A stretch of 64,000 nucleotides of DNA from Synergistales bacterium (GTDB lineage Bacteria; Synergistota; Synergistia; Synergistales; Aminithiophilaceae), in the NCBI GenBank assembly GCA_018433595.1, contig JAHDQY010000003.1, positions 1 through 64,000 of the forward strand. The letters run 5' to 3'. Below are positions 4,140 to 25,208 of the stretch, in pieces. The notes beneath the pieces were generated by a model that saw only the letters and a list, made by a program, of their open reading frames with translations, did no database searches and was not told the DNA's origin. The position numbers and the translations under genes are program-made. Every line of letters begins with the position of its first letter. The first letter of the stretch is position 1.

Positions 4140-4187
4140 GCAGGACGAGCAAAAGGGCGCCTTGAGGCGCCCTTTTGCTCGTCCTGC
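4140..4187. terminator. Bidirectional terminator between hsp20 and the LD-carboxypeptidase gene
   Basis: Perfect 22-bp stem (4140-4161 with 4166-4187) and a TTGA loop. The inner part reads AAAAGGGCGCC-loop-GGCGCCCTTTT, so each strand has a short U-run inside the hairpin, a classic bidirectional terminator placed between convergent genes. Confidence 0.85.
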
Positions 4188-6301: not shown

Positions 6302-7261
6302 ATGACCCCGGCACCTCAGGGCCAGTCCCCGTCTCCGGCCTCGGCCGATCTCGTCCCGGCCCGTCTCTGGGAGCCCATCCCGGCCTCGGAGCAGCAGGGA
6401 GAACGCATCGACCGGCCCAGCCTGACCTACCTTCAGGACGCCTGGGAGCGCTTCCGCCGCAATCCGACGGCCCTCTTCGGCCTGCTGCTTCTCGTCGTCA
6501 TCTTCTCCTTCGCCCTTTTGGGCCCCGTCCTGTCGAGTCACTCCTACCGGGAGCAGAACCTCGACAGGACCTACGAGTTCCCCAGCGCCGAACACTGGTT
6601 CGGGACGGACGCCCACGGGAGGGATCTCTTCGTCCGCGTCATGATCGGCGGCCGCATCTCCCTTCTCGTCGGGATCATCGCCACGGCCACGAGCTGCGTC
6701 ATCGGCGTCCTCTACGGCGGCTTCTCGGGCTTCATGGGCGGTCGCTGGGACAACATCCTCATGCGGATCGTCGACGTGGCCTCGACGATCCCCCTCATGC
6801 TCTATTCGATCCTGCTCATGGTCCTTCTCGGGACGGGGCTGCACAACATCCTGATCGCCCTGGGCCTCGTCTACTGGGTGGGCATGGTCCGCATCGTCCG
6901 CGGCCAGGTCCTCTCCCTGAAGGAGCAGGAATTCGTCCTCGCCGCCCAGGTCCTGGGGGCGAGGAAGTGGCGCATCCTGACGCGCCACCTCATTCCCAAC
7001 GCCATGGGGCCCATCCTGGTGACGGCGACGATGATGATCCCCGGCGCGATCTTCACCGAGTCCTTCCTGAGCTTCATCGGCATCGGCATCTCGGCCCCCA
7101 TGGCCTCCTGGGGCTCCCTCTGCGCCGACGCCCTCGGGGGACTCCGGTCCTATCCCTACCAGCTCTTCTTCCCCGCTGCGGCGATCTGCGTGACCATGCT
7201 GGGCTTCAACTTCGTCGGCGACGGCCTTCGCGATGCCCTTGACCCGAGGCTCCGCAAGTGA
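6302..7261 (+). CDS. dppC: Peptide ABC transporter permease, DppC/OppC type
   Basis: Second permease subunit, 319 aa. It has the OppC N-terminal segment (SLTYLQDAWERFRRNPTALF), the HWFGTDAHGRDLFVRV motif and an EAA loop with a conserved His-Pro context (EFVLAAQVLGARKWRILTRH). The start is taken as the ATG at 6302, 14 bp after the dppB stop, rather than an upstream in-frame codon inside dppB. It pairs with DppB to form the membrane pore. Confidence 0.92.
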   Translation: MTPAPQGQSPSPASADLVPARLWEPIPASEQQGERIDRPSLTYLQDAWERFRRNPTALFGLLLLVVIFSFALLGPVLSSHSYREQNLDRTYEFPSAEHWFGTDAHGRDLFVRVMIGGRISLLVGIIATATSCVIGVLYGGFSGFMGGRWDNILMRIVDVASTIPLMLYSILLMVLLGTGLHNILIALGLVYWVGMVRIVRGQVLSLKEQEFVLAAQVLGARKWRILTRHLIPNAMGPILVTATMMIPGAIFTESFLSFIGIGISAPMASWGSLCADALGGLRSYPYQLFFPAAAICVTMLGFNFVGDGLRDALDPRLRK

Positions 7262-18374: not shown

Positions 18375-18552
18375 TGAAATCCAAAAGACAACTTTATGGG
18401 GGTGACAAGGGCCTGTCCCGGTGCGGCGGCGTGAAAAACCGCAGCCGGGTGGCAGCTGGAAGAGCGGGTGCGAAAGGGAAGAGAGCGGAGTGTCCTTGAA
18501 GCGTGTGAGCCCTGCGGCGGCTCCGATCGAGGCGGAAAGAGCAAAGGAGTGG
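18375..18552 (+). ncRNA. Structured 5' leader of unknown class
   Basis: Between the promoter and the GyrI-like start there are about 175 nt. A GGGTGACA...TGTCCC hairpin comes first, then a 10-bp stem with one bulged G formed by CCCGGTGCGG and CCGCAGCCGGG, then purine-rich RNA up to the AAAGGAG ribosome site. I compared it by memory with cobalamin, c-di-GMP, ydaO, ZTP, fluoride, SAM, THF, Mn and guanidine cores and found no match. A 41-codon open frame (18374-18499) could start at the first transcribed ATG but has no ribosome site. Confidence 0.35.
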
Positions 18553-19023
18553 ATGGCTGTGACGCTGGCTTTTGAGATAAAAGAGTACCCCCAGGCCCAG
18601 GTGACGAGCGTTCGGCAGATGACCTCTCTGGCCGAAATCGCCGAATTTCACCAAAAAAGCTATCCGAGACTCGAAGCCCATCTCAGGAAGCACGGCGCCT
18701 CCATGACCGGGGCCCCCTTCACTCTCTATCACTGCGAATCCTTCGACCCGGCCCGCATGGATGTCGAGATCTGCATTCCCACGGAGAGGGCGCTCCCCGA
18801 GGAGGAAGGCATCCTCTCACGGGTTGTCCCCGCCTTCAAGGCCTTTGCCACGACCCATGTCGGCAGCTATGACAGGCTCTGCGAGACCTGGGAGGCCCTT
18901 GAGACGAAAATGAAGGAGGAAGGCCGTGTCGGCGGGACTCCCGGCATCGAGGTCTATCTCACCGATCCGGAGAAGCTCCCCGTGGAAGAGTGGAGGACGG
19001 AGGTCGCTCTCGCCCTCCGCTGA
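18553..19023 (+). CDS. GyrI-like small-molecule-binding domain protein
   Basis: Stand-alone GyrI/AraC effector-binding fold of 156 aa. It begins MAVTLAFEIKEYPQAQVTSV, has the two beta-alpha-beta-beta repeats expected of SHS2 domains and ends in the typical IEVYLTDPEKLPVEEWRTEV strand. Related proteins bind hydrophobic or cationic drugs, or act as gyrase inhibitors (SbmC). No DNA-binding domain is attached. The ATG at 18553 was chosen for the AAAGGAG just upstream; a longer in-frame reading would translate the structured leader. Role unknown; xenobiotic binding is the family inference. Confidence 0.8.
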   Translation: MAVTLAFEIKEYPQAQVTSVRQMTSLAEIAEFHQKSYPRLEAHLRKHGASMTGAPFTLYHCESFDPARMDVEICIPTERALPEEEGILSRVVPAFKAFATTHVGSYDRLCETWEALETKMKEEGRVGGTPGIEVYLTDPEKLPVEEWRTEVALALR

Positions 19024-20715: not shown

Positions 20716-21891
20716 GTGGATCTGGAAAAGACAGCCTTTGATCACATCATCGAACGTCGCGGCACCGGCTCCATGAAATGGGACCTGGCCGAGCCGGACC
20801 TTCTTCCGCTCTGGGTGGCCGACATGGATTTCGAGGCCCCGGCCGCCGTCAAAGAGACCCTCATCGAGAGGGCCCATCACGGTATTTTCGGCTACGGGGC
20901 TCCGGCTCCCGGCTGCGACGAGGCCGTTGTGGGGTGGCTCCGCCGCCGCCAGGGGTGGTCCGTCACGACGGAGCAGCTCTCCTTCTGCCCCGGAGTGATC
21001 CCCGCCGTTAGCCTTCTGATCCGCCTCTTCACCCTTCCGGGTGAGGGCGTCATCGTTCAGACTCCCGTCTATTATCCCTTCTACGACTGCATCAGCCGGA
21101 ACGGGCGGCGCATCGTCGAAAACCCCCTCGCCTTTGACGGGAAGCGCTACGTCATGGACTTCGACGACCTGGAGCGCAAGGCCGCCGACTCCCGGACGAC
21201 GGCCGTTATCCTCTGTAGCCCTCACAACCCCGTTGGACGGGTCTGGACCGAGGAGGAGCTTCACCGTTTCGGCGAAATCTGCCTCCGTCACGGTCTTTTC
21301 GTCATCGCCGACGAAATCCACGGGGATCTCGTCTACCGCCCCAACCGGCAGATCCCCTTCGCCTCTCTCGATGAGGCCTTCGCCGCCTCGTCGGCCCTCT
21401 GCATCGCTCCGAGCAAGACCTTCAACCTGGCGGGGCTCCAGTTTTCGATGGTCGTCATGGCCGACAAGCAGAGGCGGGAGCGCTTCCGCGACGGGCTTCT
21501 CGCCCTGGGGTTGAAGCGTCCCAACATCTTCGCCCAGGTCGCCGCCGAGGCGGCCTACCTTCACGGCGAACCCTGGCTGGAGGGCCTGCTGGCCTACCTT
21601 GAGGGCAACATCGCCTTTTTGCGCGACTTTCTGGACCGAAGGCTGCCGGAGCTTCGCCTCATCGAGCCCGAAGGGACCTACCTCGCCTGGATCGATTGCC
21701 GGGCCCTGGGGCTTTCCTCCCAGGAGCTGGAGGTGCTCATGCTCCGCGACGCCAGGGTCTGGCTCGACGAGGGGTACATTTTCGGTGATGCCGGGGCCGG
21801 CTTCGAACGCATCGTCCTCGCCTGCCCCCGGAAGGTCCTCGAAGAGGCGCTGATGCGGATCGAAAAGGCGGTCAGGGCCCTTCCCCGCTGA
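20716..21891 (+). CDS. MalY/PatB-type PLP-dependent C-S lyase or aminotransferase
   Basis: Class I/II aminotransferase-fold protein of 391 aa in the MalY/PatB group, which commonly cleaves cystathionine or Cys (beta-C-S lyase). Motifs: LPLWVADMDFEAP near residue 30, CSPHNPVGRVW, DEIHGDLVY and the PLP Lys in APSKTFNLAGLQ. The GTG at 20716 has AAGGAGG 8 nt upstream; the longer in-frame extension is inside the preceding gene. The gene ends 20 bp inside the convergent DUF4130 gene, with no terminator between them. Confidence 0.88.
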   Translation: MDLEKTAFDHIIERRGTGSMKWDLAEPDLLPLWVADMDFEAPAAVKETLIERAHHGIFGYGAPAPGCDEAVVGWLRRRQGWSVTTEQLSFCPGVIPAVSLLIRLFTLPGEGVIVQTPVYYPFYDCISRNGRRIVENPLAFDGKRYVMDFDDLERKAADSRTTAVILCSPHNPVGRVWTEEELHRFGEICLRHGLFVIADEIHGDLVYRPNRQIPFASLDEAFAASSALCIAPSKTFNLAGLQFSMVVMADKQRRERFRDGLLALGLKRPNIFAQVAAEAAYLHGEPWLEGLLAYLEGNIAFLRDFLDRRLPELRLIEPEGTYLAWIDCRALGLSSQELEVLMLRDARVWLDEGYIFGDAGAGFERIVLACPRKVLEEALMRIEKAVRALPR

Positions 21892-22630
21892 ATCCGACCC
21901 CGCTTTCCCCTGAGGGGTGCTCCACGAGATGCTTCCAGTAGCGGCGGGGCATCCGGTTTCGCTGAAGCCTTTCGTTCCTCCGGGCCTCGTTGGTTGCGGC
22001 GGAGAAGTAGGTCTGCCAGAGAAGAGGCGGAGTCGGGTCGTCGTCACCCGCCGGAGCTTCGGAGCGGGGCAGCGCTGTCAGGCGGAAGTGTCCGCCGCGG
22101 CAGAGGGCGGCAGCTTCCCGCCTCAGGTCGTGGATGATCCTGTCGTCATCGGGAAAGCGTCCGGCGAAATGGCGTCCCAGGAGGGGGAGAACTCCGTGGT
22201 CGGGTTCGCAGGGGGCGTACCAGAGCGCTCCGTGGCGGGAGAAACGGAGGAACCCCGCCAGGCGGTGAGCTTCGACGCTGACGGCCCGGGCCAGGATGTG
22301 GACGGCTCGGACGGCGGGATGGCCGTGATCGTCGAGCAGATCGGCCCCGACGGTGAAGGCCCTCCGGCAGTAGGCCACAAAAAGCCCTTCGCTGAAGGGC
22401 GTTCCCGAAAGGGAGGCCAGCCACAGCCGCCGCAGGACCTCCCCCGACGAAGCTGCGACGAGACGCTCCCGGAAGAGGCGGGCCCGCTCCGGGTCTGTCG
22501 CCACGTCCTCCTCGAAAAGGAACGCCGCCTTTCCCTTCGACGGGGCGACGGCGTCCGATCCAGATCCCAGGGCCTCGTCGAGGGCGCAGAGAAGCCCCTC
22601 GAAGGTGTCGTCATAGCGGACGGTTCTCAT
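21872..22630 (-). CDS. DUF4130/TIGR03915-type DNA repair protein
   Basis: Protein of 252 aa of the family always found beside the TIGR03916 radical SAM protein, proposed to act in DNA modification or repair. It begins MRTVRYDDTFEGLLCALDEA, a typical opening, and the C-terminal region (YFSAATNEARRNERLQRN, MPRRYWKHLVE) is characteristic. The ATG at 22630 overlaps the stop of the radical SAM gene (ATGA), so the two are translationally coupled. The reaction has not, to my knowledge, been established. Confidence 0.82.
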   Translation of the reverse strand: MRTVRYDDTFEGLLCALDEALGSGSDAVAPSKGKAAFLFEEDVATDPERARLFRERLVAASSGEVLRRLWLASLSGTPFSEGLFVAYCRRAFTVGADLLDDHGHPAVRAVHILARAVSVEAHRLAGFLRFSRHGALWYAPCEPDHGVLPLLGRHFAGRFPDDDRIIHDLRREAAALCRGGHFRLTALPRSEAPAGDDDPTPPLLWQTYFSAATNEARRNERLQRNRMPRRYWKHLVEHPSGESGVGFSGEGP

Positions 22631-23841
22631 GGGAAAAGCCGCAGCTGCCGGCTCGCGATGTCGGGCCCGTCGGCCAGGTGCCGCCGCAGCCCTTCGGGGC
22701 CGAGGTGGGCTTCGCCGAGAAAGCGGCCGTTGCAGGTCAGGAAGTGGCGGGCCCGCTTGAGGGCCAGGCCGAGCCGGGGGAGATCGTCGGCTTCGAGACG
22801 CCTCGTCCGGCGGGCTTCGACGATGCGGCGGGCCGTCGTCCGCCCCAGGCCGGGCACGCGAAGCAGCTCCTTCTCGTCGGCACCGTTCACCTCCAGAGGG
22901 AACCGCTCCGGATGGCGCAGGGCCCATCGGGCCTTGGGGTCGAGATCGTCGTCGAGAAGCGGGTCGTCGGCGCCGAGAAGCTCGTCGACGTCGAAACCGT
23001 AGAGGCGGAGAAGCCAGTCGGCCTGGTAGAGGCGGTGTTCCCGGCGCAGCGGCGGTGGTCGGTCCGGGGCTGGGAGGTAGGGGCTGGAGCCGACGGGCAT
23101 GTAGGCCGAATAGTAGACGCGGCTGAGGCCGAAGCGGCGGTAGAGGGCCTGGGTGAGGGTGAGAATGGTCCGGTCCGTCTCGGGCGAGGCGCCGACGATG
23201 AGCTGCGTGCTCTGGCCGACGGCGGTTAAGGGGGCCCGGGGGGATTTTTTGCGTGCCTCGGCCCCTTCGGCAAGGGCGGTCGCCAGCGTCGCCATGGGGC
23301 CCAGAATGGCTTCGGCGCTTTTCTGGGGTGCCAGCCGTCGGAGGCTCTCGGCCGAGGGAAGCTCGATGTTGACGCTGACGCGATCGGCGTAGCGGGTCAC
23401 GAGGCGGACCAGCTCGGGGGGGGCACCGGGGATGACCTTGGCGTGAATGTAGCCGCTGAAGCGGTGGACGGTTCGGAGCAGCTTCAGCGTCGCCACGATG
23501 CGTTCCATGGTGGCGTCGGGGGAGCCGACGACGGCGGAGCTCAGGAAGAGCCCCTCGATGTAGTTGCGGCGATGGAAGGCCAGGGTCAGCTCGGCCAGCT
23601 CGGCCGGGGAGAAATCGGCCCGCTCCACGTCCGATGAGGCCCGGTTGAGGCAGTAGGCGCAGTCGTAGCTGCAGCGGTTGCTGAGGAGAACCTTGAGGAG
23701 GCTGACGCAGCGGCCGTCGGAGGTCCAGCTGTGGCAGACTCCGCCCAGGGAGGCTCCCCGCCTGGAGCTGCCGCTGGAGGAGCAGGAGGCGTCGTGGCGG
23801 GCGGCCTCGCCGAGCAGGGCCAATTTACGCTCTCTGTCCAT
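22627..23841 (-). CDS. Putative DNA modification/repair radical SAM protein (TIGR03916 type)
   Basis: Radical SAM protein of 404 aa. The [4Fe-4S] motif is Cys57-x3-Cys61-x2-Cys64 (SNRCSYDCAYC); extra Cys residues lie upstream at 20, 36 and 45. The C-terminal part holds a helix-hairpin-helix-like segment (LLRVPGLGRTTARRIVEA), which suggests DNA contact. ATG start with GGAGGGG upstream. A 35-bp palindrome directly precedes this ribosome site. It forms a two-gene operon with the DUF4130 protein. Confidence 0.85.
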   Translation of the reverse strand: MDRERKLALLGEAARHDASCSSSGSSRRGASLGGVCHSWTSDGRCVSLLKVLLSNRCSYDCAYCLNRASSDVERADFSPAELAELTLAFHRRNYIEGLFLSSAVVGSPDATMERIVATLKLLRTVHRFSGYIHAKVIPGAPPELVRLVTRYADRVSVNIELPSAESLRRLAPQKSAEAILGPMATLATALAEGAEARKKSPRAPLTAVGQSTQLIVGASPETDRTILTLTQALYRRFGLSRVYYSAYMPVGSSPYLPAPDRPPPLRREHRLYQADWLLRLYGFDVDELLGADDPLLDDDLDPKARWALRHPERFPLEVNGADEKELLRVPGLGRTTARRIVEARRTRRLEADDLPRLGLALKRARHFLTCNGRFLGEAHLGPEGLRRHLADGPDIASRQLRLFP

Positions 23842-23853
23842 GTCATCCCCTCC

Positions 23854-23888
23854 GCCGCATATGATAACAAAATGTTATCATATGCGGC
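23854..23888. promoter_or_regulatory. 35-bp near-perfect palindrome upstream of the radical SAM repair genes
   Basis: Arms GCCGCATATGATAACA (23854-23869) and TGTTATCATATGCGGC (23873-23888) are fully complementary, separated by AAA. It ends 1-2 nt from the Shine-Dalgarno sequence of the minus-strand gene and lies between divergent genes. It could be an operator or an mRNA hairpin controlling ribosome access. It does not match LexA boxes. Confidence 0.65.
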
Positions 23889-23992
23889 TTCCCCGTTCCA
23901 GCTTTTCCGTGAAAAAACGAGACCCTTTCGCCCCTTTCTCTCTCCTGAGGTAGAATACACATGTGGAAAGAATCCTTCCCAAGGAGGTCATC

Positions 23993-25120
23993 GTGCGCGC
24001 CATCACGCTCATCGTCGTCTCCGTTATCCTGTCCCTTGCCGTCGGAGGGGGAGCCAGCCTGCTCCTTCGCGATATCGACAGGGGAACCCCCGTGGCTCTC
24101 ATCTTCGAGGAAGAGGGGCCGGGAGCCGCTTTGGGGCAGGGCCTCAAGCAGACGCTTCTTCGGATCATCGACGATTGCCGGGAACAGAAGATCGCACGCT
24201 ACAACCCCCTGCTTTTCTCTTCGGTCAATCTCGACGACGCCGTCCGCCAGGCTGCCGAAGCCGGTGCCGTGGCGATTCTGGGCGGGGGGACGTCGACCTT
24301 CACAGGCCGCCTGCTTCTGGCCGCCGAAAAGGGGCGCATCGCCTGCATCTCGCCGACGGCCAATTCCGAGCGTCTCGCTCTGGCGGGGGACCGTCTCTAC
24401 CGCGTTCTCGGCAGCACCGGAGCCCGGGAGCTGGCCCGATTTGCCGCCCAGGAGGGCTTTTCCGACTACATCGTCCTCGCCGACGGCGAGAACTACCAGT
24501 TCGTCGACTCCTTCCTTCAGGACTTCGTCGAAGTTCACGGTGAGGCGCCGCTGGAGGTTTTTCACCTCAGCCAGGGCCTGAACCTCGATCAGGTCGTGAA
24601 GCTTCTCGACAGCGGCCTTCGGTTCCGGGGGGCCCTGATCCTTCTTCCCGACTTCTACTCCGTCCTTGCCGTACAGCTTCTTCGCGATTTCTGGCCCGGC
24701 CTGACCATCGTCCTCTCCGACTGGGGTGTCTCGGACCAGTCGGCGCGCCTCATGGGGGCCTCCGGTCAGAATGTCTGGGGCATCTCCTTCTTCGCCCCTG
24801 AAATGGAGCCGCACCTGGAACCTCTCGCCCAGAGGCTGACGGAACGCTACGGGACAAGGCCGCCTTTCGAGTTCCTCGGCCCCGCCCACGCCGCCCTGGC
24901 CATGCTCGATCAGGCCGTCAAGGTCAGCGGAACCGTCAAAGGCGGCGTCGCCTCCGCCCTGTCGTCCATGTCCCGCGTCGACCGGTGGGGGTGGAGCTTT
25001 GACGTCGACAGGGCCGGTGACGGTGTTCACCCTCTTTGTGTCATCCAGTTCCTGAAAGGCCGGTGGCAGACGGTGGAAGTCCTTCCTCCGCTGACCGCCG
25101 GAGGCAGCCCGTGTCCGTAG
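23993..25120 (+). CDS. Periplasmic ligand-binding protein, branched-chain amino acid type
   Basis: Exported protein of 375 aa with a type I periplasmic-binding fold. The N-terminal hydrophobic segment RAITLIVVSVILSLAVGGGASLLL is a signal or anchor. Binding-fold elements include VALIFEEEGPGAALGQGL, AVAILGGGTSTFTGRLLLAA and ACISPTANSERLALAG. GTG start chosen because AAGGAGG lies just upstream (23981-23987). No permease or ATPase is adjacent, so it may serve a distant LIV-type transporter or be a sensor. Ligand unknown. Confidence 0.75.
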   Translation: MRAITLIVVSVILSLAVGGGASLLLRDIDRGTPVALIFEEEGPGAALGQGLKQTLLRIIDDCREQKIARYNPLLFSSVNLDDAVRQAAEAGAVAILGGGTSTFTGRLLLAAEKGRIACISPTANSERLALAGDRLYRVLGSTGARELARFAAQEGFSDYIVLADGENYQFVDSFLQDFVEVHGEAPLEVFHLSQGLNLDQVVKLLDSGLRFRGALILLPDFYSVLAVQLLRDFWPGLTIVLSDWGVSDQSARLMGASGQNVWGISFFAPEMEPHLEPLAQRLTERYGTRPPFEFLGPAHAALAMLDQAVKVSGTVKGGVASALSSMSRVDRWGWSFDVDRAGDGVHPLCVIQFLKGRWQTVEVLPPLTAGGSPCP

Positions 25121-25153: not shown

Positions 25154-25208
25154 TCCCCATGGAGAGAGGGGGGCCGTCTGAAAGACGGCCCCCCTCTCTC
25201 CATGGGGA
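25154..25208. terminator. 25-bp perfect hairpin between convergent genes
   Basis: Stem 25154-25178 with 25184-25208, loop TGAAA. It lies between the ligand-binding protein gene (+) and the TusA-like gene (-). It has no U-run on either side but its stem is extremely stable; a bidirectional terminator is the natural reading. Confidence 0.75.

Follow-up and report, generated by a model that had tools for sequence, protein, structure and literature searches.

A palindrome at the putative promoter of a TIGR03916-TIGR03915 repair operon in Synergistota is a probable repressor operator

The window, the whole stretch of 64,000 nucleotides that was analyzed from a Synergistales bacterium, carries a two-gene repair operon and a palindrome in front of it (Table 1). 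The first gene scores 528.1 bits against the TIGR03916 profile (cut-off 343.5), and the second scores 182.2 bits against TIGR03915 (cut-off 112.25), which bears out the radical SAM repair pair named in the first-pass annotation. The start of the TIGR03915 partner appears to be at 22630, where it overlaps the first gene's stop codon. The palindrome lies between divergent genes, as that annotation stated, and the diverging gene encodes a Peripla_BP_6 domain; we read its start as the GTG at 23993 that follows AAGGAGG. The palindrome also touches the ribosome site as described: it abuts CCCCTCC (23847-23853), the complement of the Shine-Dalgarno sequence GGAGGGG, and the gene begins with an ATG at 23841 on the minus strand. 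No HTH family was found among the eight neighbors of the operon in the window, and the neighbor genes examined included no regulator. Approximately 4.8 kb away from the palindrome, 18421-19023 encodes a GyrI-like protein; the SbmC/GyrI protein of E. coli is linked to the SOS response. DUF4130 is described in the available portion of PMC3765255 as a predicted mutagenesis-related enzyme that goes with SplB-like radical SAM proteins and uracil DNA glycosylases.

Table 1. Features of the repair operon and its upstream region in the window, with the related sites located in other genomes.
Feature	Position	Strand	Basis
TIGR03915 / DUF4130 partner	21872..22630	-	profile match; start from sequence reading
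Radical SAM / helix-hairpin-helix protein, TIGR03916	22627..23841	-	profile match
Shine-Dalgarno GGAGGGG of TIGR03916 gene	23847..23853	-	read from sequence
Palindrome, 16-nt perfect arms, 3-nt AAA center	23854..23888	.	inverted-repeat search
19-bp core (TGATAACATTTTGTTATCA on minus strand), proposed operator	23862..23880	.	recurs in 7 relatives
TAACAT, proposed -10 element, TG one base upstream	23872..23877	-	inferred from sequence
Divergent gene, periplasmic-binding (Peripla_BP_6) domain	23993..25120	+	domain match; GTG start read from sequence
CTAC-N7-GTAG-like sites at S24 genes L172, L177, L178, L179, L180 and at TIGR03916 promoters L140, L142, L144, L145, L147, L148			

An inverted-repeat search of 23000-24600 returned exactly one inverted repeat. 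Its arms, 23854-23869 and 23873-23888, are 100% complementary, and the sequence reads GCCGCATATGATAACA-AAA-TGTTATCATATGCGGC; the perfect 16-nt arms and AAA center reported in the first-pass annotation are thus confirmed. Perfect arms reached at most 14 nt in 25 order-1 Markov windows of equal size. The real window contains three longer perfect palindromes with arms of 26 nt (25154-25208), 23 nt (4140-4187), and 17 nt, and therefore arm length alone is not unique here. The dyad has a P of ~0.03 in a best-dyad scan limited to 9-nt arms and 90 nt upstream. The motif TAAC-N5-GTTA occurs once in the window compared to 0.04 expected from dinucleotide shuffles, and this is its single place in the whole 2.53 Mb genome. 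The 21-bp center of the palindrome likewise has one place in the genome at ≤3 mismatches. A depletion of TAAC-N5-GTTA in the genome (one place versus eight for the reversed pattern) was considered and dropped because the shuffles give 0.04 per 64 kb, or ~1.6 per genome. A wider regulon of GNTAACATTTYGTTANC at ≤3 mismatches was also rejected; the window genome has 9 + 10 matches, not above the reversed-pattern control (8 + 14).

The upstream regions of the orthologues were compared across the order. TIGR03916 relatives are present in 36 of 180 genomes, and at least 80 nt of upstream sequence is readable in 32 of these, which form the basis of the upstream-region counts; the four left out are G070 and G128 (no locus), G129/L149 (no start), and G124 (only 18 nt upstream). 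The core TGVTAAC-ATTTN-GTTABCA, with end variants, precedes the orthologue in 8 of the 32 regions. The carriers are the window genome (G000) and G002 in the window genus; G055, G061, and G064 in g26; and G072, G075, and G076 in g34. The G064 19-mer is identical to the window core, and its TIGR03916 protein is 59% identical; the G002 core has different ends (AGGTAACATTTCGTTATCC). The seven other sites are 79-100% identical to the window core, whereas their flanks are only 15-30% identical over 40 nt upstream and 13-53% identical over 15 nt downstream. The number of dyad pairs kept, out of eight, is 8 in G000 and G064, 7 in G061, 6 in G055, G072, G075, and G076, and 5 in G002. Two of the three congeners, G001 and G003, have a degenerate site, TGGTAAC-STTCA-GTAACTA, that keeps 5 of 8 pairs and in which GTTA has become GTAA. 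Neither the core nor the CTAC-N7-GTAG operator described below was present in 15 of the 32 regions. The first-pass annotation proposed this comparison and held that a lack of conserved symmetry would speak against the element. Retention of the core by seven relatives in three genera shows that symmetry is conserved, although it is imperfect in most of them.

The core follows the repair gene rather than the neighborhood. In the gene tree, a quick-method tree with SH-aLRT support only, a starred, supported branch splits the window genus from g26 and g34. The divergent neighbor also differs between these clades: a gene with a periplasmic-binding domain occupies the position in the window, G001, and G002, and PAS/GAF proteins, mostly with GGDEF, are encoded there in G055, G064, G072, and G076. 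The branch and the change of neighbor together tie the core to the repair gene. A best-dyad search of the 32 regions gave P values of ~0.016-0.033 in G000, G061, G064, G068, G120, and G121. Few dyads are individually notable, and the case for a putative operator rests on recurrence of the sequence.

In its carrier genomes, the core occurs almost exclusively at this promoter. The inner 15 bp, VTAACATTTNGTTAB, has 10 exact matches in the 180 genomes, and 8 are at the TIGR03916 promoter; the reversed-pattern control has 21 matches, all outside the eight genomes with the core. Because the pattern derives from the very sites it recovers, what is informative is how little else it recovers. The other two matches are in genomes that lack a TIGR03916 gene, and both were set aside. 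One (G171) is upstream of dnaA near a sequence resembling a DnaA box, and the other (G084) is inside an open reading frame. The idea that the palindrome itself is a DnaA box was rejected by eye; only the right half of the G002 site resembles one. Second TAAC-N5-GTTA sites were found in several genomes. Each of the three g26 genomes has one (TAACATTGAGTTA), located before an SH3-like reading frame in G055 and G061. The second site in G072 has no recognized regulator beside it, and that in G003 falls within an apparent CRISPR array (L222, contig C1, at about 2,891,863) with the repeat ATTCAAATCGCACCGTTGCGGGATTGAAAC. A self-controlling damage repressor would predict a second convincing core site, and none was found in the window genome or the core-bearing genomes.

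Orthologous promoters elsewhere carry operators of the damage type. Of the named upstream regions, 77 in all, 26 contain an exact GAACN4GTTC, the Gram-positive LexA box, within 150 nt (0.13 expected by shuffling), and 52 contain it at ≤1 mismatch (3.49 expected). The 77 regions are the 78 loci L026-L103 minus L038, which has no start; four are Synergistaceae, and L024 and L025 were excluded as congeners already counted. Six other Synergistaceae (G068, G119, G120, G121, G123, and G125) have CTAC-N7-GTAG 2-5 bases after a TATAAT. A similar site also precedes an XRE-S24 (LexA-like) gene in five of the six: it differs from GCTACGNATNNCGTAGY by ≤1 mismatch in G068 and G120 and by 2 mismatches in G121, G123, and G125, and none was found in G119. 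At ≤1 mismatch, GCTACGNATNNCGTAGY occurs at seven places in the six genomes, all of them TIGR03916 or XRE-S24 promoters; allowing 2 mismatches adds many further places, and none of the six genomes then exceeds its reversed-pattern control. G120 and G121 each have three site-like sequences (≤3 mismatches) with like spacing before the S24 gene, the G124 S24 gene has no upstream site at ≤2 mismatches, and G071 has the S24 gene and the site with no TIGR03916 match. The S24 proteins of G068, G071, G120, G121, G123, and G124 were aligned, and the two that were scanned contain HTH_3 and Peptidase_S24 domains. The alignment has conserved C-A-G, Ser, and Lys positions that resemble those of self-cleaving S24 repressors as presented in the available part of PMC8565304. 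XRE-S24 and CTAC-N7-GTAG together are a candidate small LexA-like circuit that would include the repair pair, and CTACGTATTACGTAG is a candidate operator sequence for the XRE-S24 protein L178.

Other upstream sequences were recorded in the same survey. L163 and L165 (G034 and G040) are a different XRE-S24 gene with a dyad-like TTCGC/GCGAA upstream, possibly a further damage regulator. The Desulfobulbaceae MAG SZUA-575 has two TIGR03916 copies (L054 and L065), each with a repeated TGTAAATACA/TGTATATTTACATTT-like sequence upstream that is perhaps another operator. In a Spirochaetales orthologue (L052), the palindrome ACTATACATATGTATAGT lies directly before the start codon.

The window genus was searched for the known types of damage repressor. 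LexA (TIGR00498) was found in none of the four genomes at E ≤ 0.001; the control search found it in 9 of 14 known genomes. S24 (PF00717) was found in none of these four genomes and in none of the five g26 genomes. The window genome is 99.65% complete and G002 is 82% complete. The g34 genomes do encode S24 proteins, two of them in G075, and the three that were read look by eye like phage-type HTH-S24 repressors. The strict TAAC-N5-GTTA was not found at the g34 S24 genes. A profile of the XRE-S24 proteins, used at E values up to 1, gave only weak HTH matches in G000 (0.02) and G002 (0.015), the former in what looks like a TetR-like reading frame, and no match in G055. Stronger HTH-only matches (2e-13) are found in G001 and G003, the genomes with degenerate sites. 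GAAC-N4-GTTC is absent from the vicinity of the operon, and its sole exact match in the window, at 6590, is at chance level. An S24 repressor is unlikely to own the core in the window genome, and a repressor of another class is possible.

The ribosome-site emphasis of the first-pass annotation found no support. The part of the palindrome that contacts the Shine-Dalgarno sequence, the outer 8 bp of the arms, is found in the window only, with at most one pair common to relatives, and in 10 sequences the start codon lies 18-34 nt beyond the end of the core; a ribosome-site role is therefore not supported. A regulatory function at the repair operon is the supported part of the claim, in view of the core in seven relatives. 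An RNA hairpin controlling translation is very unlikely. The window RNA does fold strongly beside the Shine-Dalgarno sequence (-25.7 kcal/mol, z -7.5), but two folded relatives resemble shuffles (z -1.1 and +0.4), the changes in the dyad are one-sided and not compensatory, and no Rfam family comes near its cut-off. Readings as terminator, mobile repeat, or functionless by-product of replication are more improbable still. The palindrome is not listed by a terminator scan for a stem and T run, and it is single copy at ≤3 mismatches in the genome. The window-only outer arms could have arisen by template switching, but the core recurs well outside the genus.

The symmetry would be incidental if the conserved element were only a promoter with an extended -10 (TG-N-TAACAT). 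The left half fits this idea: GNTAAC is present in 10 of 10 aligned sites (8 core and 2 degenerate), even where the right half has changed, G019 has the left half only (TGATAACAT), and the ATTT spacer and the orientation are invariant in the eight core sites. The right half does not, as GTTA is retained in 8 of the 10 sites across two gene clades with unlike flanks, which a promoter alone would not require; we regard this explanation as distinctly unlikely. The fixed orientation and the survival of TAAC when the right half changes suggest that one half serves as promoter and the other as operator. A promoter scan found no consensus promoter at the operon. The operator could also belong to a local repressor of, for example, the ArsR or TetR type whose signal is not DNA damage. 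ArsR-type operators can look similar, the genome has the site only once, and the searches turned up neither LexA nor an S24 protein. Against this are the LexA boxes or XRE-S24-linked site on orthologues in many lineages and the lack of a regulator gene among the neighbors examined. A local repressor is unlikely, if less so than a promoter alone.

Retention of the core at the same operon in some distant relatives makes it probably a repressor binding site. The favored reading, which we hold with reasonable but not high confidence, is that the palindrome is a double-stranded DNA operator for a repressor, placed over the -10 of the repair operon, with damage as the most likely signal. On the minus strand, the first half of the palindrome would also supply the -10 (TG-N-TAACAT), and the second half would complete the dyad on which a dimeric repressor sits. 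Bound repressor would block RNA polymerase until its removal by a signal, of which DNA damage is the likeliest. We infer the half-site as -10, repression by a bound protein, and damage as the signal. A palindrome at a DNA-repair gene promoter is a mark of LexA/SOS operators, and one is found here at a putative promoter. A more far-reaching proposal, which is possible but doubtful, is that, in Synergistota with no detectable LexA or S24 repressor, the damage response has contracted to a single promoter. A repressor of another class would hold only TIGR03916-TIGR03915 through the 19-bp palindrome, while sister genera use a two-promoter XRE-S24 system and other phyla use LexA. If this is true, damage control of the repair pair would have persisted to an unusual degree, outlasting the replacement of both regulator and operator. 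The pair is widespread, and damage-type operators at its promoter in several phyla tell when cells want it and offer an assay in the form of an inducer search. The core offers a testable single-operator circuit without recognizable LexA in Synergistota, and the sister genera offer a candidate LexA-like repressor together with its operator.

The core can be compared to known damage operators. The LexA box GAAC-N4-GTTC of Clostridia and Coriobacteriia is likewise palindromic and close upstream of the same gene, but it differs in sequence and spacing, and the window genus has no LexA. The CTAC-N7-GTAG site of other Synergistaceae is also a palindrome in the promoter region of the same gene in the same phylum; however, its sequence is different and it is tied to an S24 repressor gene absent from the window genus. 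Canonical LexA/SOS systems place sites at several genes, the regulator gene among them, and the XRE-S24 LexA-like operators also stand at the repressor gene, whereas the core is a single TAAC-N5-GTTA in its genome and is missing from the g34 S24 genes. Among the papers found in literature searches pairing Synergistetes or Synergistota with LexA, none is by its title on the SOS response of the phylum. We take COG4277 to be the TIGR03916 radical SAM family. SOS control of a related glycosylase/radical-SAM operon, COG1573-COG4277, is already published: the accessible text of PMC8565304 places it in Bacteroidetes SOS regulons and also cites Verrucomicrobia and Alphaproteobacteria. The first-pass annotation knew of no regulator for the pair, and this report, with the LexA boxes and the XRE-S24-linked operator on orthologues, corrects that statement. 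The non-canonical LexA sites of Bacteroidetes in the same text, CTAA-N5-TTAG and GGA-N5-TCC, are short N5 dyads like the core, and their regulons include the COG1573-COG4277 operon; these are large regulons under an S24 repressor, whereas the window has one promoter and no S24 protein. In a portion of PMC9380542, vnz_31145 is a LexA-linked radical SAM gene. The main text of PMC4234289, on LexA genes of C. difficile, contains none of the five terms looked for there. UmuDAb/DdrR of Acinetobacter and HdiR of lactococci are LexA-independent damage repressors that the available parts of the sources do not link to the TIGR03916-TIGR03915 pair; UmuDAb and HdiR are S24-family proteins (PMC8565304, in part). 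FddR of Francisella, a genus without canonical SOS, differs from the proposed window circuit in its GTG-N11-CAC site, S24 repressor, and divergent target gene, but according to the excerpted text of PMC13148647 it is a small S24 damage circuit and resembles the window core in forming a very small damage circuit.
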